Below are positions 31,647-52,485 of a DNA stretch of 64,000 nt, in pieces; position 1 is the first letter of the stretch; each line of letters starts with the position of its first letter. This stretch comes from Nocardioides panacis (GTDB lineage: Bacteria > Actinomycetota > Actinomycetes > Propionibacteriales > Nocardioidaceae): NCBI RefSeq assembly GCF_019039255.1, contig NZ_CP077062.1:2170001-2234000 (forward strand). The letters run 5' to 3'. A model generated the notes under the pieces. It was not told the DNA's origin and searched no databases. It saw nothing but the letters and a program-made list of their open reading frames with translations. A program made the position numbers and the translations under genes.

Positions 31647-32759
31647 TCACTTGTCGCTGACCTTGCCGCCTTCGAGGATGTCGGCGTACAGGTCGTCCCA
31701 CTTCTTGGCGTTGTTGAGCATCTCGTCCTCGTCGACCTCGATGGTCTCCAGGCCCGCCAGCGGGTCGTCCGCGCCCGGCACCGAGCCGATGCGGTAGGCG
31801 TCGGCGATGTCCTTCTGGCCGTCGGTCAGCAGGTAGTCCGTGAACAGCATCGCCGCCGCCGGGTGCTTCGCCGTGCCGAGCAGGCCGGCACCGTTCGGCC
31901 GGATCACGATCGGCTGGGCGGGCGGGTTGGCGTCGGTGCGCCACGCGATCGGGCGGCCCTCCTCCGTGCCCTCCTGGACCGAGTGGGTGTACATCGAGAG
32001 CCCGGCGGCGAACTCGCCGGCGGAGAGCAGCTCGGCCTGGACGGTGTGACCCTTGACGATCTTGGCGTTGGCGGCGATCTTCTTGAAGAGGTCGGTCACC
32101 TCCTGCTCGCTCTTGCCCTGCTTGAGGTAGTAGTTGAACATCGCGGAGAACCAGTCGACGTCTCCGACCTCCATCGAGATCTTGCCCTTCCACTTCGGGT
32201 CGGCGAACTGCTCGAGCGAGGTCGGGATGTCGGCACCCTTGACCTTGTCGGTGTTGTAGGCGATGGCGAAGGCGTTGAACCGGTCGGCGGTCCAGGTCTC
32301 CTTCTGCCCCTCGGGGCGCACCGCGTCCCGGTACTCACCCTTGTAGGGGTAGAAGAGTCCCTCCTGGCCGATGACGTTCAGCTCACCGGAGTTGGTCTCG
32401 ATCAGGTCGGCGCCCGCGAAGCCGGCCTTCGACTCCTGCAGGATCCGCTGGAGGACGGACTCGGAGTTGCCGCGGTAGACGTTGACGTCGATGTCGTACT
32501 TGTCCATGAAGCCGTCGACGATGGCGTCCATGTCGGTGTTGGAGGTGTAGAGCGAGACCTCACCCTCGTCCTGCGCGGCCTTGAGCAGTCCGTCGGCCCG
32601 CTCCTGGCCGGTCATGCCGTTGAACTTGTCGAAGACCGCCTTGGCATGGCTGTCGACCTTCTCCTTGGCACCGGCGCCCGAACTGGCGGTGGGGCTTCCG
32701 CAAGCGCTGAGGACGACCGCCATCACGGCGGCCGGGATGATCAGGGCCTTCTTCTTCAT
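31647..32759 (-). CDS. ABC substrate-binding lipoprotein, FbpA/iron(III)-type
   Basis: This is a 370-residue lipoprotein with signal and lipobox MAVVLSACGS. The body has VSLYTSNTDMDAIVDGFMDK, typical of the family 1/6 binding proteins that feed FbpB-type permeases. I chose MKKKALII as the start because the longer frame adds a hydrophilic leader before the signal peptide. Tyrosine-rich iron ligands are not evident, so an organic acid rather than Fe(III) may be bound (inference). It has its own operator at 32852. Confidence 0.9.
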   Translation of the reverse strand: MKKKALIIPAAVMAVVLSACGSPTASSGAGAKEKVDSHAKAVFDKFNGMTGQERADGLLKAAQDEGEVSLYTSNTDMDAIVDGFMDKYDIDVNVYRGNSESVLQRILQESKAGFAGADLIETNSGELNVIGQEGLFYPYKGEYRDAVRPEGQKETWTADRFNAFAIAYNTDKVKGADIPTSLEQFADPKWKGKISMEVGDVDWFSAMFNYYLKQGKSEQEVTDLFKKIAANAKIVKGHTVQAELLSAGEFAAGLSMYTHSVQEGTEEGRPIAWRTDANPPAQPIVIRPNGAGLLGTAKHPAAAMLFTDYLLTDGQKDIADAYRIGSVPGADDPLAGLETIEVDEDEMLNNAKKWDDLYADILEGGKVSDK

Positions 32760-32851
32760 GGTTTCTCCCAGAGCTGTTCGCCAAGGCCGGTGGGCCCCGC
32801 CGGACTGATGGTTAGTCCGATACGAGATGGATATCACAATGTGCGGATCAA

Positions 32852-32862
32852 TGGTTAGACCC
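32852..32862. promoter_or_regulatory. GntR-type operator upstream of the binding-protein gene
   Basis: TGGTTAGACCC lies 93 bases before the binding-protein start. A second palindrome, GGACT...AGTCC (32802-32818), lies between it and the gene and may be a second site or part of the promoter. Confidence 0.5.
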
Positions 32863-32894
32863 ATCGCCGGATTTCGCTGATTTGATCGTGACAA

Positions 32895-35372: not shown

Positions 35373-36873
35373 TCACGAGAACAGGAGCGACTTGATGACC
35401 ACCGGCACGACCCCGGGCGGGTCCAGGAGCTCACCGATGTCGATGAAGTCGAGGTCGCCGAGCTCGACGCCGTCCACCGAGACGATGCGGCGCTCGAAGC
35501 CCAGGTCGACGCTCAACAGCCGTCCGACCAGCTGGCCGACGTCACCGTCGATCGCGAGCGTGAGCGGCTCGTACGACTCCCCCCGCCGCGTCCTGGATGC
35601 CCAGGGCGAGCTGCTCGAGCGCCGCGTAGGCGGGTAGGCCCTCCCAACCGAACCCGATCGCGATCGGGTCCGCCAGGTCGACACCCCGCATCTCGGCACC
35701 GCGGCGCACCGCTGCGGCGATCGTCTCCCGGTCCGCGGTCGCACTGTCGACCTTGCCAAGGTGCACGACGGGCAGGTTGTGCACGGGCAGCACCGAGGGG
35801 TCGCTGATGTGGATCGTCTTGCCGCTCACCTGCACGGTGTACTGCGAGGCACCGATGACCGTCGCCCGGATCCGCTGGCCGGCATCGATCGCCGGGATGT
35901 CGGCCCGCTCGCCCAGCTGGCGCACGACCTGGGCGGCGAGCTCGGGGGCGATGTCGCCGTAGTCGCCGGTCTCGTGCCCGAAGACGTACTCCGAGACACC
36001 GCCGGAGAAGGTCAGGTACGCCGGGGTCGCCGTGCGGTCGATCCGCGTGGTCAGCTCGAGCGACTTGCCGAGGGCGTCGGGCTCGGCCCCGAGGATCTCG
36101 TCGACGGCGACCTGGGCGAGCCGCTCGCAGATGCGGCGCCGGACCTCGGGGTCGGCCGCTGTCTGCGGGGTGAGCTCGACGCCGAGGTCGTCGGCGACGA
36201 GCCGGGCCGAGTCGTCGATCCGGGCCCACGCGCCGGTGCCGTCCTGCGCGAGCAGCCGCCCGCCCACGGCGAACGCCGCGACGTCGAGCACCTCCCCCGC
36301 GTCGATCAGGGCGAGCTTGGTGGTGCCGCCGCCGATGTCGACGTGCAACCCGGTCTCGCCGCGCCGTCGCGCGAGCCCGGTCGCTCCCGAGCCGTGCGCG
36401 GCGAGCAGGCTCTCCAGCTCGTGCCCGGCACTGGCGCAGACGAACTTGCCGGACTGGCTGGCGAAGAGCTCGTCGATCGCCCGCGCGTTGGGACGCTTGA
36501 TCGCCTCACCGGTGAGGATGACCGCACCGCTGTCGACGTCGGCCGCGGTCAGCCCGGCGGCACTGTAGGCGTCAGCGATGAAGTGCGACAGCTCGTGGGC
36601 GTCGATCATCCCGTCCTCGCGGAAGGGGGTGTGGATGATCGACGAGGTCCACACGACCTGGCGATCGACCACCTCGAACCTGCTCGACAGGTCGGTGGTG
36701 CGGCGTCGCAGCACCACCTTCGCGAAGAGCAGGTGGGAGGTCGAGGACCCGATGTCGATACCGATCGTCAAGAGCTCGAGGGTGTCCTGCTCCTCGATCA
36801 GCTGAGCGATGGCCGCGGCTTCGTCCTCGGTGATCCCGAGCTCGTGGTAGTGGTCGAAGTCCAGGTCGTGCAC
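35373..36873 (-). CDS. EutA-like ASKHA ATPase, copy 1 (frameshifted as read)
   Basis: It belongs to the family of EutA, the reactivating factor of ethanolamine ammonia-lyase. The ATP motifs are LTIGIDIGSSTSHLLF, HVDIGGGTTKLALI and FSGGVSEYVFG. EutA-specific blocks also appear: LTGEAIKRPNARA, YTVQVSGKTIHIS and VVPVVIKSLLF at the end. The C6 run 35579-35584 has one extra base; after correction the protein is about 499 residues. It starts GTG, four bases past the bicupin stop. No ethanolamine ammonia-lyase genes are in the window, so the client enzyme is unknown. Confidence 0.88.
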
Positions 36874-36877
36874 GGGC

Positions 36878-38089
36878 TCAGACCGCCGGGCCGGTGGACT
36901 CCGGCGTCCGGATGACGCCGCTCAGCTCGGACTCGGGGATCGCCAGGACGGCCGGCTCGTCGAAGATGTCGCCCATCTGGGACGGGACGCCGGTCTTGGC
37001 GCACTCCTCGAGGAACTTGCGGTGCACGCGCGGGTCCTGCTCGTCGTACTCGATCTGGCGGCCGCCCTTGGAGACCGAGACCGCACCCTGGCCCTCGGCG
37101 CTCTTGCGACGCAGCGAGATGAAGGGGTAGCGGCGGCTGCCCAGGCTGCACGCCACGTAGCGGGCGGGCTGGTCGGCGGTGTTGAAGTGCTGGTGGAACA
37201 TCCAGAACGGCGGCGTGTACATGATGCCGTGACGCCAGGGCAGTTCGACGAACTCGTCGTCGGCTTCGTACCACAGCAGCGAGTATCCGGAGCCGTCGAC
37301 CGCGTGCACGTGGGTGCCGGCGGCGTGACGGTGGGCCTTCTTGTAGCGGCCGACCGGCATCTGGGACACGTGCGAGTGCATGGTGCCGTCGGCCAGCACG
37401 AAGTTGACGTTCATCGAGCCCTTGCCGCGGCCCTCGAACTCGTAGAGCTTGAAGCTGGTCAGGTCGTGGACGAAGTTCGTCTCCCAGATGTTCTGGACCT
37501 TGGCCGAGTCCTTGTTGAAGGTGTCCAGGCGTCCCTCGCCGTCGAAGTACTTCGGGTCGCCGACCCGGTCGGCGAAGTCGAAGTCGTTCTCGAACACGAA
37601 CTCGAGGTTGTGGTACAGGTTGATCGTCAGCGGCGCGTCGTTGGTGACAGACAGGCGGACCGGCTCCGAGGAGGAGCCGTTGAAGATCTGGTACTTGCAG
37701 TTCAACGGGATCGCGAAGATCGCCTTCGGGCCGAACTCGAAGGTCCGCTGCGTGCCGTCGGGCAGCCAGACGACGGCGGAGCCGTGGCCGGCGAGGACGA
37801 AGAAGAACGCCTCGTAGAGGTGGCGGACGACCTCGGTGTTCTTCCGCGGCTCGACCTCGAGGACGTAGTTGGCCATGAAGTCGCCCATGCCCTTGGTGTG
37901 GGCGAAGCAGCCCCGCGCGCCGTACCGCTCCCACGGGCCGGTCTCCAGCGCGAGCAGGTCGTGGCCGAAGTCCAGGTGGACGGGGATGCCCTCGCCCTCG
38001 GCCCAGTCCTTGTAGGGGTCGACGAGGTATCCGGGCTGCGCCTGGGCGGCCGGGGCGTCGGCGCCCTGGTTGGAAGCAGTCTGCGTCAT
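36878..38089 (-). CDS. Bicupin protein, copy 1 (partner of the EutA-like ATPase)
   Basis: This 403-residue two-domain cupin resembles gentisate-dioxygenase-type proteins. The second domain keeps a likely metal site: HRH at 253-255 (KKAHRHAAGTHVHAVDGSGY) and HQHFN at 299-303. The first domain (RHLYEAFFFVLAGHGSAVVW) has lost most ligands. Databases label such proteins ethanolamine ammonia lyase-activating, from context only. It is preceded by AAGGAGG, and its stop lies four bases from the EutA-like start. It could be a mononuclear-iron dioxygenase or isomerase. Confidence 0.82.
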   Translation of the reverse strand: MTQTASNQGADAPAAQAQPGYLVDPYKDWAEGEGIPVHLDFGHDLLALETGPWERYGARGCFAHTKGMGDFMANYVLEVEPRKNTEVVRHLYEAFFFVLAGHGSAVVWLPDGTQRTFEFGPKAIFAIPLNCKYQIFNGSSSEPVRLSVTNDAPLTINLYHNLEFVFENDFDFADRVGDPKYFDGEGRLDTFNKDSAKVQNIWETNFVHDLTSFKLYEFEGRGKGSMNVNFVLADGTMHSHVSQMPVGRYKKAHRHAAGTHVHAVDGSGYSLLWYEADDEFVELPWRHGIMYTPPFWMFHQHFNTADQPARYVACSLGSRRYPFISLRRKSAEGQGAVSVSKGGRQIEYDEQDPRVHRKFLEECAKTGVPSQMGDIFDEPAVLAIPESELSGVIRTPESTGPAV

Positions 38090-38162
38090 GGAACATGACC
38101 TCCTTGAGCTGTGGTGTGGAACGACGTCAGTGCGCGGCCGCAGTGGAGACGGGTCCGCGGGG

Positions 38163-39698
38163 TCAGGCTCCGCTGCGGCCCAGCGCCGCCGTGGTCGGGA
38201 ACACCAGCGACTTGATCACGACCGGTACGGCGCCCGAGGCGGGAAGCAGATCACCGATGTCGATGAAGTCGAAGGCCTGGAGCGTCAGCCCGTCGACAGA
38301 GATCACCGGGATGGACAGGCCGAGCTCCTGGTTGAGGTGGATGCCGATCAGTCCGCCCACGTCGCCTTCGCCCACCAGCACCAACGGAAGGCCGGTGTCC
38401 GTGCGCTCGGCCATGCCCGCGGCGACGCCACGGCAGAACGCATCGAGCCGTCCGAAGGTGGCGGATCCTTCCCAGCGGTAGCACAGGGCGACCAGCTGGT
38501 CCTTCGGCATCTCGTCGAAGTGCTGCAGCGCCTCGTGCACAGCCGCCGCGATCTCGTCCGCGTCCAGCGTCTCGCTGTGCAGCGGCAGCTGCGGCGTGAG
38601 CACGGGAACGTTGCGCAGCGGGAGGATCGACGTGGGCTCCACGAAGATCGTCGTACCGCTCACCTGCACGGTGTACTGCGAGGCGCCCACGACGGTGGCA
38701 CGGATGCCCTGCTCGGCGACCTGCAGCTCCGGGCCCCAGGTCTCCACCCGTCGACGGATCGCGTCCGCCAGACGGGGGCCGAGGTCGCCGTGGTCGCGCT
38801 GGTCGCGCCCGTAGACGTACTCCGCCACGCCGCCGGAGAACGAGATCGCGTCCGGCACCGGACCCGCCGGCAGCGGGTCCAGACGCAGCAGCTCCGCCGT
38901 CGCCCTCGCCGGCTGCCCGCTCTGCATGGCGGCGAACAGGTGGTCCGCCATCAGGTCGACGAGCCGCGACAACGCCTCAGCGTCGGGCACCTCGCCCATC
39001 ACCAGCGCGAGGCCGGCCTCGTCCGCGAGTCGGCGCGCCGCCTCCTCGATGCGCGTGACGCGGCCGTCCGCGTCGAACGCGATGATGCGCGCGCCGACGT
39101 CGATCGCGGTCAATGCCTCCACCTCGCCGTCCTGGCACACGGCGATCTTGGACGTGCCACCGCCGATGTCGATGTTCATCGTGCGGTTGCGGTTGCGTTC
39201 CGATCGCGCCACCGCACCCGACCCGAAGGCCGACAGCTGGGTCTCCAGCGCGTCGCCGGCGCTGACGGAGACGAACTTGCCCGCGATCTGCGAGAACACG
39301 TCGCCGATGATGCGCGCGTTGCGCCGGCGGACGGCGACGCCGGTCATGATCAGGGCGCCGGTGTCGATCTGCTCCGGCACCACACCTGCCGCGGCGTACT
39401 GCTTGTCGAAGAAGTCGCGCAGCGCGTCGCCGTCGAGCGTGTCGGCATCGCTGTACGGCGTGAGCAGGACATCGGACTCGTGCGTGACCTCGCGCGAGGT
39501 CACCAGGTAGCGGTTGTCGCGACGCTCCAGCACGATCCGCGACAGCACCATGTGCGTCGTGGAGGAGCCGATGTCCACGCCGACGCTGACGAGCCGGATC
39601 TCGTCGTCGACCAGCACCAGGCTGCGCCCACCGCTGGTGAAGATCCGGCCGCCGGCGTGCTCGATCGGCGTCACGTGTGCCGGGTCACTGAATCCCAT
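38163..39698 (-). CDS. EutA-like ASKHA ATPase, copy 2
   Basis: This is an intact 511-residue paralogue of the gene at 35373. Motifs are SVGVDIGSSTTHMVLSR, NIDIGGGTSKIAVC, FSGGVAEYVYG, LMTG-type MTGVAVRRRNARI, YTVQVSGTTIFVE, LPLRNVPVL, FDFIDIGDL and VVPVVIKSLVFPT, all of which align with EutA. It overlaps the bicupin upstream by 14 bases, so the two proteins are made together. It differs enough from copy 1 to suggest each ATPase serves its own bicupin. Confidence 0.9.
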   Translation of the reverse strand: MGFSDPAHVTPIEHAGGRIFTSGGRSLVLVDDEIRLVSVGVDIGSSTTHMVLSRIVLERRDNRYLVTSREVTHESDVLLTPYSDADTLDGDALRDFFDKQYAAAGVVPEQIDTGALIMTGVAVRRRNARIIGDVFSQIAGKFVSVSAGDALETQLSAFGSGAVARSERNRNRTMNIDIGGGTSKIAVCQDGEVEALTAIDVGARIIAFDADGRVTRIEEAARRLADEAGLALVMGEVPDAEALSRLVDLMADHLFAAMQSGQPARATAELLRLDPLPAGPVPDAISFSGGVAEYVYGRDQRDHGDLGPRLADAIRRRVETWGPELQVAEQGIRATVVGASQYTVQVSGTTIFVEPTSILPLRNVPVLTPQLPLHSETLDADEIAAAVHEALQHFDEMPKDQLVALCYRWEGSATFGRLDAFCRGVAAGMAERTDTGLPLVLVGEGDVGGLIGIHLNQELGLSIPVISVDGLTLQAFDFIDIGDLLPASGAVPVVIKSLVFPTTAALGRSGA

Positions 39699-40944
39699 CG
39701 GCCATCAGCTGCTTGTTCGCGTCCCAGTCGATGCCCGCGGGACGCTCGTACCAGGACGGGTCCATGCGGAGCTCGACGCCGTTGGTCTCCAGCAGCGCCT
39801 CGTACTCGGCGCGGACGTGCGGGTCCTCCTGCCAGTACGCGATCGAGGTGCCGCCCTCGTGGAGCTCACGAGCCGTGTAGTCGGTGTGCTTGGTGCCGGG
39901 GGCGCCCGGATCGCGGCCGGGGTTGTGCGGGCCGAACCAGGCACTCAGCCGGAACGGCTCCTTCGACACGCTGAAGTGCTGGTGGTACCAGCGCTGGCCA
40001 CCGGGCGCGGCCGTGATGAAGCCGAACGGCTCGTAGTCGAGGCGCTGGACCTGGTCACCGTTGCCGTCCGCCCAGGGGGTCGGCCCGAGGTGCTCGGGCC
40101 ACGTGTGGGTGTATCCCTTGCCCTTGAGGCAGATCAGGATCGCGGCCGAGGTGTGTGCGTGGGCCTTCGAGTAGCGGCCGTTCTCGTGCTGGGCGATCCA
40201 GTAGTAGAACTGGTTGTCGGTCATGTACGGCTCGACGCGGCGGTAGCCCGGGGAGCGGCGGTTGTCCAGCGGCAGGTCGCAGTCGACGACGTCGGGGATG
40301 AAGTTGGTACGACGCATCGCGAGGCCGCGCACCGGGTCGGGCTCGATCTCTTCGCGGTACTTGAAGAAGTCGTCGGCGCCGCTGAAACGGTCGCGGAAGA
40401 TGAACGGGTTGTCGAACACGGCCTCGACGTTGTTGAGCTGGTTCAGCACGTTGGGCGCCGTGTTGCCGGCCATCAGCACGGCAGGCTTCGAGGTGGCGTT
40501 GACCAGGCGGAACCAGGCGTTCATCGGGATCGAGAACATCGAGCCCTTCTGCCACTCGAAGACGTGCTTGTTGACGTCCCCCTCCTGCCAGACCTCGCAG
40601 GTGCCGCGGCCCTCGACGGCGAGGTAGATCTCCTCGAACATGTGCTTCTCGGGGTTCAGCGCGTCGCCGGCCGGGATCTCGACCACGAAGTGGCCCCACT
40701 TGGTCTCGGTGCCGATGGTCTGGATGTAGCTGCCGCGGCCGCCCTTGCGCTCCCACTCCACCCTCGGCAGGTCGGTCACGGTGCGCACGCCCAGACCGCG
40801 GAAGATCGGGATGCCCTCGGACTCCATGAAGGTGTCGTAGGGCGTGGGCTGCTTCTTGAACTCGCCGAAGCCGGCCCGGTTGTGCTCCGTAGGCTCCTGC
40901 CACACGGTCCCGGTCCCGGTCCCGGTCTCGTCGTCGTTGGACAT
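39685..40944 (-). CDS. Bicupin protein, copy 2 (first gene of operon)
   Basis: This is a 419-residue two-domain cupin. The C-terminal domain has HAH at 262-264 (YSKAHAHTSAAILICLKGKG) and WYHQHF at 319-324, the same arrangement as copy 1. The N-terminal domain (HMFEEIYLAVEGRGTCEVW) is better conserved than in copy 1 but lacks the full HxH. It is the first gene of an operon controlled by the 41022-41040 site. The fold and the neighbouring LigJ/LigK suggest an aromatic-ring or ring-fission substrate. Confidence 0.82.
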   Translation of the reverse strand: MSNDDETGTGTGTVWQEPTEHNRAGFGEFKKQPTPYDTFMESEGIPIFRGLGVRTVTDLPRVEWERKGGRGSYIQTIGTETKWGHFVVEIPAGDALNPEKHMFEEIYLAVEGRGTCEVWQEGDVNKHVFEWQKGSMFSIPMNAWFRLVNATSKPAVLMAGNTAPNVLNQLNNVEAVFDNPFIFRDRFSGADDFFKYREEIEPDPVRGLAMRRTNFIPDVVDCDLPLDNRRSPGYRRVEPYMTDNQFYYWIAQHENGRYSKAHAHTSAAILICLKGKGYTHTWPEHLGPTPWADGNGDQVQRLDYEPFGFITAAPGGQRWYHQHFSVSKEPFRLSAWFGPHNPGRDPGAPGTKHTDYTARELHEGGTSIAYWQEDPHVRAEYEALLETNGVELRMDPSWYERPAGIDWDANKQLMADGIQ

Positions 40945-41021
40945 CAGTGAGCCTCCAGAGGGGTGCGAAGTCGAACGCAGCGCGGCTGCTTGCAGGGCTG
41001 CGGCGCGCGGACAGAGGGTGA

Positions 41022-41040
41022 TGGTCTATAGGTTAGACCA
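41022..41040. promoter_or_regulatory. GntR-type operator of the bicupin/EutA operon
   Basis: TGGTCTA (41022-41028) and TAGACCA (41034-41040) are perfect inverted repeats around TAGGT. The right part, AGGTTAGACCA (41030-41040), matches the operator series. It lies 78 bases before the bicupin start. Confidence 0.65.
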
Positions 41041-41125: not shown

Positions 41126-42112
41126 TCAGATGACGAAGCTCTCCAGGGTCTCGTCCGCGAAGAGCTCCTCCGGCGCGAGGAGGCGGGGCGACAGCCCCTG
41201 CGCGTGGTGGTGGCCGAGGAACGTCTCGAGCACGTGCACGTTGGCGTCCAGCCCGTAGGACCAGAAGTCCTCGCCGAGCAGCGCCCGGTCCGCCTCGGCG
41301 TGCTGGATCAGCCAGGGCGACATGAAGCGCAGTGCCGAGGCGTCGAGGAAGGCCGCGTAGGCGGCGTCCTTGGCCTGCAGGAACGCCTTGAACAGTGACT
41401 GTGCGATCCACCGGTTCGCCTCGTAGACGTCGCGGCGGATGGCCACGACGTGCATGATCGGGAAGATCCGGGTGCGCTCGAAGTACTCCCGCTCCGCGGC
41501 GACCGGGTCCGCGAAGAGCCGGCGCACCCGGCCGTCGTCGCGGTGGAACGTGCTCGGGATCCGCGGGCCGTAGAAGGCGTCGATCTCGCCGGCGTGGAGC
41601 ATCTCGGCGAGGGCGCGGCCCTCAGGGATCGGGCTGATGTCGAAGGCGGTGTCGATCGCCCCCTTCTCGATCCTGCCCGGAGACTCCTGCCCGCCGGTCA
41701 GGTAGCTCACCGAGTCGACCGGCACCTGGTGCTCGTCGGCCAGGATGCCGCGGATCCAGACGTTCGCGGTGAGCTGGAACTCCGCGTTGCCGACCCGCTT
41801 GCCGCGCAGGTCCGACGGCTTGTCGATCCCGGCCTCGGCGTTCACGAAGATGCCGCCGTGCCGGAACATCCGCGACGTGAAGACCGGCAGCGCGACGAAG
41901 GGACGTTCGGTGCGGCCGAGCGATGCGGCGTACGACGACAGGGACATCTCCGCCACGTCGAACTCCCGGTGCCGCACCATGCGGAAGAAGGTCTCCTCGA
42001 CCGGGAGGCGAAGGTAGGTCAGGTCGATGCCGTCGGGCCGGACGGTTCCCTCGAGGAGGGCCCGGGTGCGGTCGTAGTCACCGCACGCGAGCGTCAGCGG
42101 CAACCGCCGCAT
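41126..42112 (-). CDS. 4,5-dihydroxyphthalate decarboxylase (Pht5)-like protein, copy 1
   Basis: This 328-residue protein of the Pht5/periplasmic-binding-like fold has characteristic blocks LTLACGDYDRTRALLEGTV, FDVAEMSLSSYAASLG and FVALPVFTSRMFRHGGIFV. There is no signal peptide, so it is a cytoplasmic enzyme rather than a binding protein. Family members decarboxylate 4,5-dihydroxyphthalate to protocatechuate. The start overlaps the LigJ stop by one base. It is the last gene of the dehydrogenase-LigK-LigJ operon, consistent with a phthalate-like route, but the substrate is not proven. Confidence 0.85.
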   Translation of the reverse strand: MRRLPLTLACGDYDRTRALLEGTVRPDGIDLTYLRLPVEETFFRMVRHREFDVAEMSLSSYAASLGRTERPFVALPVFTSRMFRHGGIFVNAEAGIDKPSDLRGKRVGNAEFQLTANVWIRGILADEHQVPVDSVSYLTGGQESPGRIEKGAIDTAFDISPIPEGRALAEMLHAGEIDAFYGPRIPSTFHRDDGRVRRLFADPVAAEREYFERTRIFPIMHVVAIRRDVYEANRWIAQSLFKAFLQAKDAAYAAFLDASALRFMSPWLIQHAEADRALLGEDFWSYGLDANVHVLETFLGHHHAQGLSPRLLAPEELFADETLESFVI

Positions 42113-43140
42113 CAGGCGCTCTCGAGTGCGCCGGCTGCCCTGACCCGAGCGCGGAGCCGCGGGTAGACGCGCAGCGCATTCTCGGTCATCACCTTGGCCC
42201 GGTCGGCGTCCGAGATCGCCGCGGCCCGCAGGTAGTGGAGCGTGTCGTCCCACTCGATGCCGGTCTCCGGGTCCGCGCCGCGGACCGCACCGAGCATCTC
42301 CGAGGCGAAGAGCACGTTGTCGGCCGGCAGCACCTCGAGCAGCAGGTCGATCCCGGGCTGGTGGTAGACGGCGGAGTCGAAGAAGAGGTTCGACAGCAGC
42401 GCCGACGGGTCCTGCCAGCCGTTGCGCACGGCCAGGCCGCGGTAGCGGCCCCAGTGGTAGGGCACCGCGCCGCCACCGTGCGGGATGACCAACCGCAGCG
42501 CGGGGAAGCGCTCGAACACGTCGGAGGAGAGCAGCTGCACGAAGACGCTGGTGTCGGCGTTGAGGTAGTGCGCGCCGAGGGTGTGGAAGTTGGGGTTGCA
42601 CGCGGTCGAGACGTGCACCATCGCGGGCACGTCCAGCTCCTCGAGCGTCTCGAAGACCGGGAACCAGGACTCGTCGGTGAGCGGCTTGCCCGCCCAGGTG
42701 CCGGACGGGTCGGGGTTGAGGTTGACCCCGACGAAGTCGAGCTCGGCGACGGTCCGGCGGATCTCGGCCACGACCCCGGGGATGTTGCCGTCCGGCGTCT
42801 GTGGCAGCTGCGCGACCGGCGCGAAGTGTGCCGGGTAGAGCTCAGCGATCCTGTGCACGAGGTCGTTCGAGGCCTGCGCCCAGGCGATCGCGACGTCGGC
42901 ACTGGGGACGTGGTGCTCCATCGCGGAGGCCTTCGGTGAGAAGATCATCAGGTCCCCGCCGCGCTCGCGCAGCACGCGCAGCTGGTTGCCCTCGACGCTC
43001 TCCCGGAGCTGGTCGTCGGTGACGGGACGCATCGACGCTGCAGCCCTCCCACCGGAGGCGAGTGTCGCGAGCTGGGCGTCCCGGAAGGCCTGCAGCTCGC
43101 CGGGCGCGGTCGTGTAGTGACCGTGGACGTCGATGATCAC
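42112..43140 (-). CDS. ligJ: 4-oxalomesaconate hydratase (LigJ-type amidohydrolase)
   Basis: This amidohydrolase-fold enzyme hydrates 4-oxalomesaconate to 4-carboxy-4-hydroxy-2-oxoadipate in the protocatechuate 4,5-cleavage and gallate pathways. The N-terminal metal motif is IIDVHGHYTTAPGELQAF. LigJ-type blocks include TNQLRLM-equivalent GNQLRVLRERGGDLMIFSP, VGVNLNPDPSGTW, MVHVSTACNPNFHTLGAHYL and LVIPHGGGAVPYHWGRYRGL. The GTG start overlaps the LigK stop as GTGA. At 342 residues it is the normal length. Recognition comes from remembered family sequence, not from a search. Confidence 0.87.
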   Translation of the reverse strand: MIIDVHGHYTTAPGELQAFRDAQLATLASGGRAAASMRPVTDDQLRESVEGNQLRVLRERGGDLMIFSPKASAMEHHVPSADVAIAWAQASNDLVHRIAELYPAHFAPVAQLPQTPDGNIPGVVAEIRRTVAELDFVGVNLNPDPSGTWAGKPLTDESWFPVFETLEELDVPAMVHVSTACNPNFHTLGAHYLNADTSVFVQLLSSDVFERFPALRLVIPHGGGAVPYHWGRYRGLAVRNGWQDPSALLSNLFFDSAVYHQPGIDLLLEVLPADNVLFASEMLGAVRGADPETGIEWDDTLHYLRAAAISDADRAKVMTENALRVYPRLRARVRAAGALESA

Positions 43141-43844
43141 GCGTTGTTCTCCTTCATCCACTCGGCGTGGTCGACGTACCGGATGCCGGCCTGCTCGAGC
43201 ATGGGTCGCATGTTGTTGACGTCGAGGGCGATCTCACCGGCGAGGTAACGGGCCCGGGCCCGGGCTTCCTTCTGCTCGCGGGCCTGTGCGGCGGTCACGA
43301 CAGCGGCCGCGTCACGGCGGGGCACGACGACCACGCCGTCATCGTCCGCAACGATGACGTCGCCCGGGTTGACGATCTGTCCGGCGATGCTGATCGGGAC
43401 GTTGACGTCACCCAGGTTGCCCTTGCCGCAGCCCTCGGCCGAGACGGCCTTCGACCAGACCGGGAAGCCCATCTCGTTGAGGTCGGCCACGTCACGCACG
43501 CCGGCCTCGATGACCAGGCCCCGGACGCCGCGGACCTGGAGGGTGGTCGCCAGCAGGTCCCCGAAGTAGCCCATGTCGCACGGCGCCGTCGGCACTACGA
43601 CGAGGACGTCGCCCTCTCCGCACTGTTCGACGGCGACGCCGATCGTGGTGTTGTCGCCGGGGGCGACGGTGGCCGTGACCGCGTTGCCGGAGACCCGGAC
43701 GCCACGCTGCACGGGGTTGATCGAGGAGCCGAGGAGACCGGTGCGGCCCTGTGCCTCGTGGACGGTGGCGACGCCGAATGCAGCCAGGGCGTCGACGGCC
43801 GCTCGGTCCGCGCGCGGCGGGTTCGTGACGACGACGCCCGTCAC
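43137..43844 (-). CDS. ligK: 4-carboxy-4-hydroxy-2-oxoadipate aldolase (LigK/RraA-like)
   Basis: This aldolase cleaves 4-carboxy-4-hydroxy-2-oxoadipate to pyruvate and oxaloacetate, and usually decarboxylates oxaloacetate too. The fold is RraA-like. Characteristic blocks are FGVATVHEAQGRTGLLGSSI, GDLLATTLQVRGVRGLVIEA (with the pyruvate-binding GD...R), GVRDVADLNEMGFPVWSKAV and NPGDVIVADDDGVVVVPR. The GTG start overlaps the dehydrogenase stop as GTGA, and the stop overlaps LigJ, so product and enzyme order match the pathway. The length is 235 residues. Confidence 0.9.
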   Translation of the reverse strand: MTGVVVTNPPRADRAAVDALAAFGVATVHEAQGRTGLLGSSINPVQRGVRVSGNAVTATVAPGDNTTIGVAVEQCGEGDVLVVVPTAPCDMGYFGDLLATTLQVRGVRGLVIEAGVRDVADLNEMGFPVWSKAVSAEGCGKGNLGDVNVPISIAGQIVNPGDVIVADDDGVVVVPRRDAAAVVTAAQAREQKEARARARYLAGEIALDVNNMRPMLEQAGIRYVDHAEWMKENNA

Positions 43845-44992
43845 CGGACGACCGCCCCGCCGGGCTGACCGATCAGCTCGGGCATCATCGAGACGTGGAT
43901 CGCGTCCTCGTCGGTCTCGCCGGCGAGGACCCGGATGGCGTAGTCGACCTGGTCGATGCCGTAGCGGTGCGTGGCCAGCTTCTCCAGCGGGAAGCGGCCG
44001 GACGCGAGCTGGGCGACCGCGAGCTCGCAGGCGTTGAAGGAGTGGCCGCGGGCGGACTTGATGGTGATCGCCTTCTCGGTGACCTTCTTGACCGGGAAGT
44101 CGGGGAACGCGGCGAGCTCGCCCTGGATCAGCAGCGTGCCCTCGCGGCGCTTGAGCACGTCGATGCCGAGCAGCACGGGAGCGGTGCCCGCACGCGACGT
44201 GCAGTCGAGCACGAAGTCGACGCCACGGCCGGCGGTGAGGTCCATGATCTTCTCGCGCGGGTCCTCGGTGAGGACGTCGACGACGTCGTCGGCACCGAGC
44301 TCACGGGCCAGGTCGAAGCGGACCTTGTCGCGGGTGGTCCCCGAGACGATGATCTGGGCGGCGCCGGCCTGCTTGGCCGCGACGAGCTGCGCGAGGCCCT
44401 GCTGGCCCGGGCCCTGGATCAGCACCGTGTCGTTGTAGCCGACGCCGGCGGTGAGCAGCGCCCACTCGATGCCGTTGGAGAGCGGCATGACGAGGCCGGC
44501 CTGCTCGGGCGTGACCGAGTCCGGGATCCTGTGCAGCACGGCGTTCCAGGGCAGGAACATGTACTCCGAGAAGCCGCCCCACAGGGTGCCCGGATGGTCG
44601 GCCGAGGTGTAGCCGAAGCGGCGGGCGTCCGGGTTGGTGCGCCAGTCGGTGGCCTCGCAGTGGCGGTACTCGCCGATCCGGCACCACTCGCAGTTGAAGC
44701 AGGCGACGTAGTGCTCGACGAACACACGATCGCCCTCCTGGAGGCCGTGCCGGGCCTTGAACCTCTCCCCCGCCTCCTCGATCACGCCGACGTTCTCGTG
44801 ACCCATGATCACCGGGCCCTGGGTGGCCGGGTTGCTCGGCGGGTTGCTGTAGAGCTTCACGTCAGTGCCACAGATGCCCGCGACCTCGATCTTGAGCAGC
44901 GCGGACTCGACATCGATCGCCGGCCTGTCGAACTCGCGCATCTCGGTCGTACCGGGCGCGGTCCTGACCGCCGCGCGCACCTTGTCGCTCAT
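43841..44992 (-). CDS. Zinc-dependent alcohol dehydrogenase (MDR family)
   Basis: This is a 383-residue medium-chain dehydrogenase. Catalytic zinc ligands are in AGICGTDVKLY and VIMGHENVGVIEE; the structural zinc cluster is ACFNCEWCRIGEYRHC; the NAD site is VLIQGPGQQGLAQLVAAKQA. It is the first gene of the LigK/LigJ/Pht5-like operon. A plausible step is oxidation of a side-chain alcohol or a cis-dihydrodiol, or the semialdehyde oxidation normally done by LigC. None of these can be chosen from sequence. Confidence 0.92.
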   Translation of the reverse strand: MSDKVRAAVRTAPGTTEMREFDRPAIDVESALLKIEVAGICGTDVKLYSNPPSNPATQGPVIMGHENVGVIEEAGERFKARHGLQEGDRVFVEHYVACFNCEWCRIGEYRHCEATDWRTNPDARRFGYTSADHPGTLWGGFSEYMFLPWNAVLHRIPDSVTPEQAGLVMPLSNGIEWALLTAGVGYNDTVLIQGPGQQGLAQLVAAKQAGAAQIIVSGTTRDKVRFDLARELGADDVVDVLTEDPREKIMDLTAGRGVDFVLDCTSRAGTAPVLLGIDVLKRREGTLLIQGELAAFPDFPVKKVTEKAITIKSARGHSFNACELAVAQLASGRFPLEKLATHRYGIDQVDYAIRVLAGETDEDAIHVSMMPELIGQPGGAVVR

Positions 44993-45014
44993 CAACTCTC
45001 CTGGATTGGCAGAA

Positions 45015-45025
45015 TGGTCTGACCA
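45015..45025. promoter_or_regulatory. GntR-type operator between divergent dehydrogenase and Pht5-like genes
   Basis: TGGTCTGACCA is a perfect 11-base palindrome and equals the core of the known FadR consensus (TGGTCnGACCA). It lies 22 bases from the dehydrogenase start and 63 from the plus-strand gene, so it can control both. Confidence 0.7.
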
Positions 45026-45088
45026 ACATAACATCATGCCGTGAGGCAGGTCACTGGCTCACCTTCACCCGATCCCCCAAGGAGCGCC

Positions 45089-47528: not shown

Positions 47529-48359
47529 CTACTTCTGGCCGCGGAGCTTCCGGGCCCCGCGGATGTCGGCGGCGCACTCGACGAGCGCGTCGTAGGCCAC
47601 CCGAGCGACGTTGGCGTAGGTGTCCGGCTCCGTGTCCACCCCGGCGGCGCTGTATCCGATCGCGGCCGTCACCATCCGGATCCGGCCGTCCAGCCACGGT
47701 CCGCCGCCGAAGCCACCGAGGACCGGGATGTCGACCGCGTCCACGACGGCGGGGCCGACGACCGGGCCGGAGTTGGTGAAGTTGAGCGCGACCGCGCCGG
47801 CCGACTCCAGCCGCTTCGCCTCGGCGACCAGCTCCTCGAGCATCTCGTCCGGCACTTGGGCGGTGCTCGCGGCGGAGTACTCCAGGCCGTACCTCAGCGA
47901 GGTCTGCGGCGTGATGCCGAACTGCGGGAAGACCGGGATGCCGGCGCGGGTGACCGCCTCGACCGCCTCGGGGTGGTCGGCGGCACCGTCCAGCTTCACC
48001 AGGTCGACGCCGGCCTCCTTGACCAGCCTGATCGCCGCCTTCACCGCGCTCGCGGTGCCCTCCTGCAACGGGCCGAAGGGGAAGTCCGCGCTGAGCAGCG
48101 CGCGGGACACTCCGCGGCGTACCGCCTTCGCGACGACCAGGATCTCGTCCATCGTGATCTCGAGCGGGTGCGGCTGCCCCCACAGGTTGACCCCGACGGT
48201 GTCGCCGACCGAGACGATCTCGGCGCCGGCACGGTCCGCGAGCTGCGCCATCTGGTAGTCCCAGGCGACGAAGCAGACGCTCTTCTCCCCTGTTGCCTTC
48301 ATCGCCAGCAGGGACCCGACGGTGACCTTGTCGGCCTTGCCGACACCGCTCGCGCTCAT
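47529..48359 (-). CDS. Ketopantoate hydroxymethyltransferase (PanB)-like enzyme
   Basis: This 276-residue protein of the PEP mutase/isocitrate lyase superfamily is closest in pattern to PanB: VTVGSLLAMKATGEKSVCFV, VSVGDTVGVNLWG (metal Asp), LLSADFPFGPLQEG, and VDLVKLDGAADHPEAVEAV with PVFPQFGITPQTSLRYG. Core pantothenate synthesis would not normally sit in such an operon, so this is probably a recruited aldolase acting on a 2-oxo acid. It overlaps the 160-residue partner upstream as ATGA. Confidence 0.85.
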   Translation of the reverse strand: MSASGVGKADKVTVGSLLAMKATGEKSVCFVAWDYQMAQLADRAGAEIVSVGDTVGVNLWGQPHPLEITMDEILVVAKAVRRGVSRALLSADFPFGPLQEGTASAVKAAIRLVKEAGVDLVKLDGAADHPEAVEAVTRAGIPVFPQFGITPQTSLRYGLEYSAASTAQVPDEMLEELVAEAKRLESAGAVALNFTNSGPVVGPAVVDAVDIPVLGGFGGGPWLDGRIRMVTAAIGYSAAGVDTEPDTYANVARVAYDALVECAADIRGARKLRGQK

Positions 48360-48838
48360 GCGCGGGTCGCCCGGAGCAGCTCGACGAGGTCGTCCTCGTC
48401 GGCGGGGACCAGCAGGATCCGCGCGTGGGGACGGAGGTGGAGGAGCGCCTCGCTCGTCAGCGCGCCGGGGGTGACCACCAGCCCCGCGGTCATGATCCCG
48501 CGGACCTTGCACGCGGCTCCGATGGTCGACACTGCCTCGGCGTTGGAGCCCTCGACGGCGACCAGGACGACCGTGTTGGTGTCGTTCAGCACCTCGTCGA
48601 GGTCGACCGGGACGCCCGTGGTCTCGATGAGCGTGTGGCCAGGATCGGCGACGCTGAAGAACCGGGCCTGCCCCCACTCCAGCTCCGAGGCGCGGCGCAC
48701 CATCGCCTCGGCCTCCGGGTCGAGGGCGACGACCCGCGTGTTGCGGGCCGCAGAGAGCGGGTAGTCGATGCGGAAGGCCGCCTCCTTGGCGGTCGTCGCC
48801 TCGGCGCAGCCCCCGGTCGGGGTCGACAGGTTCGACAT
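48356..48838 (-). CDS. Uncharacterised protein coupled to the PanB-like enzyme (160 aa)
   Basis: This is a soluble alpha/beta protein without a signal peptide or membrane segment. Beta-strand/loop features (NTRVVALDPEAEAMVRRA, VVLVAVEGSNAEAVSTIG) look vaguely like an FtsZ- or Rossmann-type nucleotide site, but no family is recognised. It follows the Rieske gene by seven bases and overlaps the PanB-like gene, so the two are co-translated and may form a complex. Confidence 0.75.
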   Translation of the reverse strand: MSNLSTPTGGCAEATTAKEAAFRIDYPLSAARNTRVVALDPEAEAMVRRASELEWGQARFFSVADPGHTLIETTGVPVDLDEVLNDTNTVVLVAVEGSNAEAVSTIGAACKVRGIMTAGLVVTPGALTSEALLHLRPHARILLVPADEDDLVELLRATRA

Positions 48839-48845
48839 CGCAGCC

Positions 48846-50129
48846 TCAGACCGTGGTCTGCGGGACGCCGGGCTTGGCGATCATCGCCTCGCCGATGCCC
48901 TCCACGAAGGACTGGTCGGCCGGCAGCACGATCGCCACCGAGCGGACCTTCTGGTCCTGCGGGCGGTTGCCGACCGGCTCGACGCCCTCCTGCAGGGCCA
49001 GGGCCGCCTTGCGCAGCTTCTGCCGGGCCTTGATGATTCCGGCGTCGGTGGCGACGAGGCGCTCCTTGGTGCGATCGACGACCGGACCCATCGACTCCTG
49101 GAGCGAGGAGTCCTGGAGCGCGATGCCGTGGATGCCGGAGAAGGTCTCGCCGCGACGCTGCGCCTCGCGATCCATCAGGTAGTTGTTGTCCTTGTTGGCC
49201 AGCGGGCGGTAGGCCTCGTCGTTGGCGCTGTGCACGCCCTTGCCGGCGCGCATCGCCTCGAGCTCGGTCTCGGTGAGCTGACGGGTCGGGTGGTAGTCGA
49301 AGCTCCAGGCCCAGCAGTTCTCGTCATCGATCGGCACCCAGAAGTGACCGTGCACGGGGTGGTCGCCCCGCGGCGGGACCATGGTGAAGTTGGGCAGCAC
49401 CCACGGCGTCACGCGCCAGTAGTAGTGCCCTTCCTCGGCGTTGCGGCGAGCGCCGATAAGCAGGCCACCTTCGTAGTCGACGACCTCGAAGGACGGCTTG
49501 AGGTCGGCCTTGTTGTAGGCGTTTCCCCTCGAGCCCTTGAAGAGCGGGTCGGAGTCGAGGTTGCCCGAGTGCAGGAAGCTGACGTGGCTGGAGTCGATGC
49601 CACCCTCGAGCGCCTGGAGCCAGTTGCACTCCTGGACGCGCTTGGAGGTGAAGGCCTGGCCCTCGGGGACGCGGTAGGCCTCCCACTCGGGCAGCGGCGG
49701 CTGCTCCGCCGGGTCACCGAGGTAGGCGAAGAGAACGTCGCCGAGCTTGACCAGCGGATACGACTTGAGCTTGACGTTCGCGCAGAAGCTGCTGGTCTCC
49801 GGCTCGCTCGGGACCTCGATCGCCTGGCCGGTGTAGTCGTACTTCCAACCGTGGTACGGGCAGCGCAGACCGCCCTGCTCGTTGCGGCCGAACCAGAGCG
49901 AGACACCTCGGTGAGCACAGAACTCGTCCATCAGACCGTAGTTGCCCTCGGAGTCCCTGATGGCGATCAGCCGCTCGGAGAGAACCTTGACCCGCACCGG
50001 CGGGCAGTCGTTCTCCGGGAGCTCTTCGGCCAGGAGAACAGGCTGCCAGTACCGGCGGAAGAGCCCACCCATCGGCGTACCTGGCCCGGTCTGCGTGAGC
50101 AGCTCGTTGATGTCGGTGCGAAGCATCAT
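48846..50129 (-). CDS. Rieske oxygenase large subunit, phthalate 4,5-dioxygenase-like
   Basis: This is the terminal oxygenase of an aromatic dioxygenase or demethylase, 427 residues. The Rieske centre is C71-x-H73 and C90-x2-H93 (CAHRGVSLWFGRNEQGGL then RCPYHGWKYD). The mononuclear iron site is in ALEGGIDSSHVSFLHSG. The start (RTDINELLTQTGPGTPMGG) is typical of the phthalate 4,5-dioxygenase group. With Pht5-like, LigJ and LigK proteins nearby, a phthalate or methoxybenzoate-like substrate is likely. It needs the ferredoxin at 50215 and a reductase, probably that at 20507. Confidence 0.92.
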   Translation of the reverse strand: MMLRTDINELLTQTGPGTPMGGLFRRYWQPVLLAEELPENDCPPVRVKVLSERLIAIRDSEGNYGLMDEFCAHRGVSLWFGRNEQGGLRCPYHGWKYDYTGQAIEVPSEPETSSFCANVKLKSYPLVKLGDVLFAYLGDPAEQPPLPEWEAYRVPEGQAFTSKRVQECNWLQALEGGIDSSHVSFLHSGNLDSDPLFKGSRGNAYNKADLKPSFEVVDYEGGLLIGARRNAEEGHYYWRVTPWVLPNFTMVPPRGDHPVHGHFWVPIDDENCWAWSFDYHPTRQLTETELEAMRAGKGVHSANDEAYRPLANKDNNYLMDREAQRRGETFSGIHGIALQDSSLQESMGPVVDRTKERLVATDAGIIKARQKLRKAALALQEGVEPVGNRPQDQKVRSVAIVLPADQSFVEGIGEAMIAKPGVPQTTV

Positions 50130-50577: not shown

Positions 50578-51005
50578 TGCCTGAGGTGTGATCTGCGTCA
50601 AGCCGACAGACCCAGCTGCCCCCAGCGACCTTCGTCACGCGAAGGTGGACATGCCTGTGTCGCGCACAGCTGCTCAGGCGCTCTCGGGGATGCCGCGTCC
50701 CTCGCGCCTGACGCACGTCCCGCTTCCCAGGTCTCGCCCAGCAACACCACCCGTGAATCTCTGCGCGATCCTTCGCCATAGGTCGTCATCAACCGGGCCC
50801 GTCAGGCGTTCGCCCTCGAGGAGAGCGAGGCACCCGATCATCGTCGCGACATCCCGCTTGGAGACCGGGTTGGGGATGGGATTGATGAGCGTCGAGACAT
50901 GACCCCACGATGCCCCGTAGCGAGACCAGACGCCTGTTCGGCAACTGCCGGATCTGTTGCAGTCCGGGATCTCGCGAGGTGAGTCTTTCCGGCTCCCCTC
51001 TGTTG
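50578..51005. other. Region between the ferredoxin promoter and the IS110 element
   Basis: A minus-strand frame (about 50674-50920) looks protein-like (PVSKRDVATMIGCLALLEGE) but has no recognised family, and it is in frame with the transposase ORF only by chance. It may be the tail of a gene cut by the IS element. Nothing else is seen. Confidence 0.35.
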
Positions 51006-52217
51006 TCAACCGGTCGTCTGAGGCGTCTTGGTTCTCGAGGTCTTCCGGGCTCGGCTGGGCGGTTGTAGCGTCGGTTGTGCGGGTCCGGGAAGTGGCTGAT
51101 CCGAAAGTGTCGATGAGCGGGAGCAGGTCGACCGCGCTGGATTCTTGAGACGCCCCGCAGTGCCCTCCCGGGCCCGCCTCGACGGGCTCAGCCTGCGCGC
51201 GAGCGTCAGCGAGGAGCCTGCGGTAGACGGCATCGGATATCCGACGCTTCAGGCACCGCATGGCCTCCATCCGGGTCTTGCCCGCGGCGAGCTTGCGCCG
51301 GTAGTAGGCCCGACCGGGGGTGTCGAGCCGGACCTGGGTGGCTGCCGCGATGTGCAGCATGTGGTTCAGCTTGCGGTTGCCGGCCCGGGAGAGCCGGTGT
51401 CGGATCTGTTCCCCGGAGGAGACGTCCAGGGGTGCGGTGCCGGTCCAGGACGCGAACCGGTTCCGGTCGGCGAACCGGGCCACGTCGCCGACGTCGGCAA
51501 GGACCCGGGCAGCGACAACCGGGCCGACCCCGGGCAGGTCCATAAGCGTGGAACCACTGGCGATGACCATCTCCTTCAGCTCTGTGGTGAGGGTCTTGAT
51601 CTTCTTCTCGACCGCGACCAGCTCGGCGAGCTGCTCGACCGCGAGGCGGCGCCGGGTCTTGCCCGCCAGGTCCCGCGGCCGCACCGAAGCCAGGATGGCC
51701 TTGGCCTGACCCGTCGTGATGTCCTTCTTCGCCGTGCCCGGCGTGAATTCGGACAGCAGTCTCTGCAGCCTGTTGACCGTCTGGATCCTGGTTCGGGTCA
51801 GTTCCTCACGCCGGTCGGCGAGCATCCGCAGTGCCTCGAGCTCGACGTCGTAGGACAACACACGCAAGCCCCGGGTGCGGACCGCTACTGCTGCGACCGC
51901 GTGCGCGTCGTGGGCGTCGGTCTTGCGGTTGTGGCCGGTGTCGAACAATCGGGCTCGTGCCGAGAGCTTGGCCGGCACGTCGACCACGTGCTCACCGTCG
52001 GCCAGCACAGCCGCTGCGCCAACGGCCGGCCGGCGCCGTTGCTCCCCTCGACCGCCCAGACCCGGTCGGGCCAACGCGACACGGTCTTTCGCATCGCGGT
52101 GTACCCGGGCTTGTCCGTGCTGAACCGGCCGGTCGCCAGCACTGTCTCGTGCTCGTCGACGACCTCGATCGTCGCCGAGAGTTTGTGGGGATCGACCCCG
52201 ATGAACACCTTCGCCAT
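51006..52217 (-). mobile_element. IS110-family insertion sequence transposase (two frame breaks)
   Basis: The N-terminus MAKVFIGVDPHKLSATIEVV and the later Glu and DAHDAHAV residues form the RuvC-like DEDD site. The C-terminal Tnp_20 domain has LMDLPGVGPVVAARVLADVG and GTAPLDVSSGEQIRHRLSRA. A base is missing near 52010. An extra T near 51111 hides the natural end (PLPGPAQPTLQPPSRA). About 1.2 kb is coding. The element has no inverted repeats, as expected for IS110. The non-coding side upstream of the start (52218-52400) is where IS110 elements carry their bridge RNA. Confidence 0.87.
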
Positions 52218-52485
52218 GCCGCACCACCCGAAAGTCCTGAACCAATAGGGATCGCGAGGCGGGCATTGCTGTTACGAGCTGGGCAGTCCCCTCTGGAGCC
52301 ACGCCTCGACACGGCACCCGGCGGGGACGCAAACCGAAATAGAGCCACACCGATCAAGCCGGTGGGCAGCCGCAAAGAGAGCATCCCGCCGAGCGCCTGG
52401 ACCGAGTCTGGCCGGACAGCGGTCCTAACGGAATCGTCTAACAGCCGCCAATCGGCGACAGAGGTCCGCCGACTTGGTGCAGGGC

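Follow-up and report, generated by a model that had tools for sequence, protein, structure and literature searches.

In Nocardioides panacis, ASKHA ATPases of the EutA family are encoded directly beside bicupins, within a 64,000-nucleotide stretch of contig NZ_CP077062.1 (positions 2,170,001 to 2,234,000; "the window" below means this whole stretch). EutA-family ATPases and cupins are found paired across genomes, and adjacency, co-occurrence and co-divergence together make it very likely that the two proteins are a functional unit. What the ATPase family is known to do, and the retention of its ATP site, speak for a unit in which the cupin is activated or reactivated. We therefore propose, with a probability of about 0.52, a two-gene module in which the ATPase does this for a metal cupin that is probably a dioxygenase cleaving aromatic rings. 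The window would contain two copies of this module, each made up of a bicupin metalloenzyme and an EutA-family ASKHA ATPase.

The four genes lie on the minus strand at 35373-40944 of the window in the order CupA, EutA1, CupB, EutA2, with gaps of -14, 73 and 4 bases. The names phosphate-1 and phosphate-2 for the two EutA1 motifs are ones that we presume to apply.

39685..40944, minus strand: CupA, bicupin of 419 amino acids, partner of EutA1 (Cupin_2 35 bits, cut-off 27.2)
40153..40161, minus strand: CupA HAH, residues 262-264, two presumed metal ligands (from sequence; aligned position conserved)
39976..39984, minus strand: CupA HQH, residues 321-323, presumed third metal ligand (from sequence; aligned position conserved)
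38163..39698, minus strand: EutA1, intact EutA-family ASKHA ATPase of 511 amino acids (PF06277 387 bits)
39558..39575, minus strand: EutA1 phosphate-1 motif DIGSST, residues 42-47 (conservation across EutA clades)
39147..39170, minus strand: EutA1 phosphate-2 motif DIGGGTSK, residues 177-184 (conservation across EutA clades)
36878..38089, minus strand: CupB, bicupin of 403 amino acids, partner of EutA2 (Cupin_2 23 bits, below cut-off)
37325..37333, minus strand: CupB HRH, residues 253-255, presumed metal ligands (from sequence)
37187..37195, minus strand: CupB HQH, residues 299-301, presumed metal ligand (from sequence)
35373-36873, minus strand: EutA2 as a whole, in two frames (PF06277 matches in both)
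35542..36873, minus strand: EutA2 N-terminal piece (PF06277 300.3 bits, profile 2-404)
35373..35759, minus strand: frame of the EutA2 C-terminal piece (PF06277 45.1 bits, profile 407-474, frame residues 60-127)

An earlier reading of this DNA, made from the sequence only, had described two EutA-like ATPases alternating with two bicupins in a tightly coupled run, and the coordinates and PF06277 matches confirm this: CupA and EutA1 overlap by 14 bases, and CupB and EutA2 are 4 bases apart. It was also right about one slip in EutA2, where the PF06277 match is split over two frames with the switch close to six consecutive C at 35579-35584, and about the His-x-His (HxH) and HQHF patterns, which are present in both bicupins (HQHF at residues 321-324 of CupA and 299-302 of CupB). 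Both EutA2 pieces still match PF06277, which suggests that the frame break is either recent or a sequencing error. EutA genes in two pieces were also seen in Marinobacter algicola (L047:9998-11497) and in a record titled Deltaproteobacteria bacterium (L081:9510-10979).

Pairing of EutA and cupin across genomes

The sequence-only reading had called for a survey of genomes for EutA beside a bicupin without EutBC, and in this survey the pairing recurs and is not random. On a Phyllobacterium plasmid a cupin 72% identical to CupA is encoded 12 bases before an EutA 56% identical to EutA1, and the same cupin-EutA pair is found in Sinorhizobium. Phyllobacterium zundukense and Sinorhizobium terangae each have a pair of the CupA-EutA1 type, to which S. 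terangae adds a second one. Among 149 genomes of the window's family, PF06277 genes occur in six, including the source genome; a cupin adjoins EutA in three genomes (L006-L009) and EutB adjoins EutA in two (L004, L005), while a second piece from genome G055 (L010) begins at a contig end. When GTDB genomes were scanned with a profile built from cupin-linked EutA, at least 502 relatives came back, of which the best 80 were kept, and because of the way the profile was built these 80 loci lean to the cupin type. Within this best 80 of at least 502, a cupin lies on the same strand within 300 bp upstream of EutA in 54 stretches; of the others, 12 have a cupin elsewhere in the stretch, 10 have none and four end short upstream. 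All ten genomes with a cupin-free EutA stretch encode a cupin elsewhere. A cupin is present in 70 of 83 EutA-selected loci. We found no conserved third partner, since the next commonest family, an ABC ATPase, is present in only 32 of the 83. Two metagenome-assembled genomes titled Bordetella parapertussis and Klebsiella pneumoniae (L042, L064) both hold the cupin-EutA pair of environmental relatives, and we doubt these labels.

Co-occurrence was scored in two samples that were not chosen by the pair, except for their centres (the source genome and Sinorhizobium terangae, G554). Of 396 genomes from the window's phylum, exactly five, including the source, have the cupin family (E up to 1e-30), which is absent at that threshold from the other 391; the same five carry a full-length EutA that is not beside EutB. 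Some PF06277 match (E up to 0.001) is present in 245 of the 396 genomes and exceeds the cut-off in 62, the EutA count being restricted to near-full-length matches of about 300 bits or more, with partial matches below 40 bits presumed to be other ASKHA proteins. Outside the source genome, this sample has six EutA loci beside EutB (L097-L102) and four beside a cupin (L103-L106); one genome (G223) has a second EutA with, by coordinates, a cupin 72 bases ahead, and no cupin was found in the six genomes with an EutB-adjacent EutA. In 190 Alphaproteobacteria, cupin and EutA occur in the same four genomes, including the centre; six of eight EutA genes have a same-strand cupin within 300 bases, one has a cupin at 315 bases and one has none on its contig. 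Fisher tests of co-occurrence, centres included, give 1.3e-11 for the phylum, with at most three EutA and four cupin candidates scored per genome, and 1.9e-8 for the Alphaproteobacteria, with at most seven and ten. No earlier description of an EutA-cupin pair was found in the open-licence literature, among the matches listed.

Co-divergence of the paired genes

Tree distances of the ATPases and cupins are strongly correlated over 63 adjacent pairs (r 0.92; EutA above 400 bits, cupin above 250 bits and longer than 900 bases, partial genes at contig ends excluded), and raw identity distances give r 0.91. The nearest neighbour is the same pair in 40 of the 63, and at most three others are closer in 57. 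Both gene orders occur, in 58 and five pairs; for the 58 pairs of one order, 2000 permutations reach at most 0.43, and the main class of 52 pairs has r 0.78 against a permutation maximum of 0.27. In all seven genomes with two pairs, their own pairing beats the swapped pairing, strongly in six and closely in the seventh (G003, 1.52 vs 1.41), and raw identity distances again favour it in 7 of 7. The 63 pairs are related by descent, so that the number of independent events is smaller, about a handful of deep classes. Co-divergence and co-occurrence together rule out chance or hitchhiking as the origin of the pairing.

An ATPase clade separated from EutB

All three window matches to PF06277 pass its gathering cut-off of 27 bits (EutA1 at 386.9 bits). 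EutA1 falls below the cut-offs of the four NCBIfam EutA equivalog models that it matches (318/598, 260/769, 216/952 and 210/799 bits), as do both EutA2 pieces for every such model matched, in a comparison that covered the window proteins only. A tree separates 107 EutA of loci that lack EutB from 15 EutB-linked EutA, with a support of 0.84. Residues D42, G44, D177, G179-G181, G289 and G290 of the ATP site are conserved in both clades, while S45, S46, Y82 and K184 mark the clade without EutB, and K184 is replaced by N in 15 of 15 EutB-linked EutA. Judged from these alignments, the EutA1-type ATPases are a separate clade that keeps the ATP site. The structure model of EutA1 has a predicted local distance difference test (pLDDT) score of 82.8 and matches ASKHA proteins in Foldseek with modest template modelling (TM) scores. 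Its best match in the PDB (1hux, E 8.7e-11) is the activator (component A) of 2-hydroxyglutaryl-CoA dehydratase, likewise an ASKHA activase, from which it differs in having only 14% identity to it and in scoring 24.8 bits against the Pfam family BcrAD_BadFG, below the cut-off of 31.5.

The source genome, which is one contig of 4.90 Mb and 99.96% complete, has no match to EutB (PF06751) and no PF06277 match besides EutA1 and EutA2 (E up to 0.001). EutB was found in one of 25 cupin-type genomes and in both EutB-type controls, so the link to EutB has been lost in cupin-type genomes with a single exception, a Burkholderia (G553, L050) with EutB at C69:18817-20115 and two EutA on contigs C44 and C15. 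Profile searches found neither EutB nor EutC in the 80 stretches around the best 80 EutA relatives; the two profiles were made from four haloarchaeal sequences each, and that of EutB was positive in L004, L005, L097-L102 and L126-L128. The absence of EutBC noted in the sequence-only reading is thus borne out in the source genome for EutB and in the 80 related stretches for both subunits. The dehydratase large subunit PF02286 matched none of the 25 cupin-type genomes, a result that shows little since no control genome matched either.

To our knowledge, EutA-type reactivases are known only for B12 enzymes, and reactivation is the sole known function of PF06277. Membership of this family would fit an ATPase that serves an unrecognised B12 enzyme, the cupin being a mere pathway companion. 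We give this explanation very little credence, because EutB, the client that the sequence-only reading had named as evidence against its own proposal, is lacking in 24 of the 25 cupin-type genomes, because the 80 stretches have neither EutB nor EutC (other B12 enzymes were not searched) and because no neighbour family other than the cupin exceeds 32 of 83 loci.

The bicupin family

The structure model of CupA (pLDDT 87.2) has a bicupin fold and is matched best by bicupins, 2vqa and 1uw8 among them (TM 0.42-0.50). EutA-adjacent cupins of Phyllobacterium (L011) and Sinorhizobium (L012) are 72-75% identical to CupA, and a cupin in Microbacterium (L017), the closest relative, is 83% identical. Named families are much more distant. 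The gentisate dioxygenase 3bu7 gives 29 bits with CupB and 35 bits with the cupin family, whereas the A3 cupin profile gives 476 bits with CupB by construction, CupB itself being in A3. The 5-aminosalicylate dioxygenase model MabB matches 38 of 45 cupin members weakly (E up to 0.01, best 2.3e-9), and its cut-off is failed by the window cupins: CupB reaches 25 of 650 bits and CupA has no match.

Histidines 253, 255, 299 and 301 (CupB numbering) are all present in 119 of 127 cupins: 84 of the 89 in the loci and the window, and 35 of the 38 sampled as paralogues in three genomes (20 of 30, 10 of 24 and 8 of 14 cupins of G546, G547 and G549). The alignment has no conserved HxH in the N-terminal cupin domain; the HxH sits in the C-terminal domain. 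This motif suggests that the cupins bind a metal. Together with the non-random pairing, its presence in 119 of 127 cupins makes an ATPase with a metal-cupin client the best reading of the data.

The three genomes that supplied the paralogues (L075, L082 and L085, with record titles Chloroflexota, Dehalococcoidia and SAR202) show a large cupin expansion, with 30, 24 and 14 cupin matches of at least 250 bits beside five, three and four EutA matches in genomes of 1.7-3.3 Mb. In Phyllobacterium zundukense, a nickel/cobalt transporter NiCoT (on the opposite strand) and NikR adjoin the cupin-EutA pair (L011:16509-18111), which may hint at the metal of the cupin.

Neighbouring catabolic genes

In the window, genes of a putative aromatic-carboxylate cluster lie upstream of the module on the same strand.

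41126..42097, minus strand: protein encoded upstream of CupA in the same-strand run of genes (12 of 82 loci have related genes)
42112..43161, minus strand: 4-oxalomesaconate hydratase, LigJ-like (392 bits to 2gwg)
43137..43844, minus strand: 4-carboxy-4-hydroxy-2-oxoadipate (CHA) aldolase (PRK09262 317 bits, cut-off 179)
43841..45037, minus strand: zinc alcohol dehydrogenase (ADH_N and ADH_zinc_N)
48846..50129, minus strand: Rieske oxygenase alpha subunit, phthalate-4,5-dioxygenase-like (433 bits to 9ina, 317 to 7fhr)

The first of these has no Pfam or NCBIfam match; we take it to be similar to 4,5-dihydroxyphthalate decarboxylase (Pht5). The CHA aldolase scores 295.8 bits against TIGR02798, slightly below the cut-off of 304.5. 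Past an interval of 999 bases follow a histidine phosphatase, a hydrolase, a PanB-like protein, a protein without known family and the Rieske oxygenase, which has relatives in 18 of 82 loci. The 160-residue protein without known family at 48356-48838 adjoins the Rieske gene, and relatives 32-34% identical to it stand beside Rieske genes in L011 and L012. An IS110-family transposase (50674-52350) at the Rieske end is in line with movement of the cluster from one phylum to another.

Of the genes scanned between 34124 and 50129, CupA and CupB would be the sole candidates for ring cleavage between the Rieske oxygenase and the 4-oxalomesaconate hydratase. Genome-wide, the search for dioxygenases covered the LigB family, with a single match some 2.4 Mb away from the window, and did not extend to other types such as the vicinal-oxygen-chelate dioxygenases. 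This pathway context suggests ring cleavage by the cupin. Neighbouring genes change from locus to locus, so the reading of a ring-cleavage substrate is a local one only.

Three further ideas were rejected. A dedicated part in a phthalate operon does not serve as a general role, because Rieske, hydratase and Pht5-like genes are found in a minority of loci. An alpha/beta-hydrolase family present in 26 loci was considered as the hydrolase of a ring-cleavage product, and the single representative tested falls near proline iminopeptidases and not near hydrolases of that kind. Finally, the solute-binding protein at 31647-32894 has weak matches to ferric binders and to binders of 2-aminoethylphosphonate alike, which says nothing about a link to iron import.

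Weighing the alternatives

Several observations weigh against an ATPase that reactivates a ring-cleaving metal cupin. The cupins score far short of every named family, which leaves dioxygenase activity a guess based on their fold, motif and pathway; nor are aromatic neighbours a general feature, with a Rieske gene in 14 of the 54 loci that have a close CupA. The similarity of the EutA1 model to another ASKHA protein (TM 0.30 and 0.53 to 1hux) would fit an activase, a kinase or a phosphatase alike. Five cupins directly upstream of EutA lack the full set of motif histidines (L080, L087, L090, L091, L095), suggesting that metal renewal may not be the whole function. Gene numbers are also unequal: in a set of 14 genomes, ten of them chosen for an EutA stretch without a cupin, there are 118 matches to the cupin (those below 250 bits excluded) against 40 to the ATPase, three of the latter being partial, with 30 and five in G546 and six and one in G545. 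Only 15 of the 40 ATPases have a same-strand cupin within 300 bp, and 25 do not.

The motif-less cupins might be explained if the cupin were a small-molecule sensor or lid controlling the ATPase, whose target would differ. In L080:8733-9944, L087:8741-9952 and L095:4755-5966 the HxH is lost, with Y and P instead, and the HQH is kept; each of these three loci holds a second cupin, that of L095 in two pieces. The metal motif is nevertheless kept in 119 of 127 cupins, and we regard a sensor or lid as highly improbable.

The copy numbers are incompatible with a strict rule of one ATPase per cupin: several cupins would have to share an ATPase, or else many of them do without one. The suggestion in the sequence-only reading that every ATPase may have a single cupin to serve agrees with the co-divergence seen in adjacent pairs and fails as a general rule. 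In certain ATP-dependent hydrolases and carboxylases a catalytic subunit has the ASKHA fold, and the ATPase and cupin might likewise be subunits of one ATP-dependent enzyme, in which the ASKHA protein activates the substrate and the cupin completes the reaction. Such an enzyme would account for the co-occurrence, the co-divergence and the 14-base overlap of CupA and EutA1, but we consider it unlikely given 118 cupins to 40 ATPases, ratios of 6 to 1 and 30 to 5 in single genomes and 25 of 40 ATPases without a close same-strand cupin, in a genome set that leans that way. The unequal copy number and the separated genes, as well as the co-occurrence, could instead be accounted for by consecutive steps, the cupin product being used by an EutA-like kinase or other ATP-dependent enzyme with no need for contact. 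However, ATPase clades track cupin clades even where one genome has two pairs, and the neighbouring catabolic genes vary so widely that a common product is unlikely; as the only function of PF06277 known to us is reactivation, consecutive steps appear rather improbable to us.

Activation or reactivation of a metal cupin by the ATPase is therefore the reading that we keep. Of the module put forward in the sequence-only reading, the pairing of an ATPase with a putative metal-cupin client stands, in genomes lacking EutB in 24 of 25 cases and with a conserved metal motif; renewal of the metal, or of the enzyme, by the ATPase is conjectural, and the one-to-one rule falls.

A possible reactivase for metal cupins

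Contact between ATPase and cupin and ATP-driven repair are suggested by analogy with the ATPase family. One study states that the Salmonella ammonia-lyase needs EutA, described there as exchanging adenosylcobalamin (AdoCbl) for Co(II)Cbl (PMC9426561). In the mechanism we envisage, the cupin would be a non-haem metal dioxygenase that fills the ring-cleavage slot of an aromatic-carboxylate cluster (Rieske oxygenase, 4-oxalomesaconate hydratase, CHA aldolase). The ATPase would bind the cupin, and ATP turnover would open it so that a damaged or wrong metal or a bound inhibitor is released, or metal is loaded, much like the exchange of spent cobalamin that EutA performs on ethanolamine ammonia-lyase. 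Each ATPase clade would match one cupin clade, and a single ATPase would probably serve several cupins per cell.

Compared with EutA as reactivase of ethanolamine ammonia-lyase, EutA1 shares the PF06277 match, the ATP-site residues and the coupling of the ATPase gene to that of a presumed client; it differs in its separate clade (S45, S46, K184), in scoring below the NCBIfam EutA equivalog cut-offs and in standing beside a bicupin rather than EutBC, in a genome without EutB. Gentisate and 5-aminosalicylate 1,2-dioxygenases share with the window cupins a cupin His-x-His plus His motif and weak profile similarity, whereas the latter are far below the family cut-off, carry the HxH of their type in the C-terminal domain with none conserved N-terminally, and have a partner ATPase. 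Diol dehydratase reactivase (DdrA, PduG) is an ASKHA reactivase of a B12 enzyme. No row so named is among the 50 Foldseek matches listed for the EutA1 model, and its client was not found in cupin-type genomes, in a search without a matching control.

We tentatively suggest, while giving it somewhat less than even odds, that these proteins are an undescribed class of ATP-driven metalloenzyme reactivase, an EutA-family clade that would maintain metal cupins by replacing a damaged or wrong metal and not cobalamin. It would span at least Actinomycetota, Pseudomonadota and Chloroflexota (by record titles), with tens of cupins depending on a few ATPases. Annotation would be affected too, since a cupin-paired ATPase carries the name "ethanolamine ammonia-lyase reactivating factor" in a public record. 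If the proposal is true, enzyme repair driven by ATP is not confined to one cofactor chemistry but reaches a second that is very different. The proposal would also account for failures that such cupins might show on being expressed without a partner, and it would open a way into a cupin family that reaches 30 copies in a genome.

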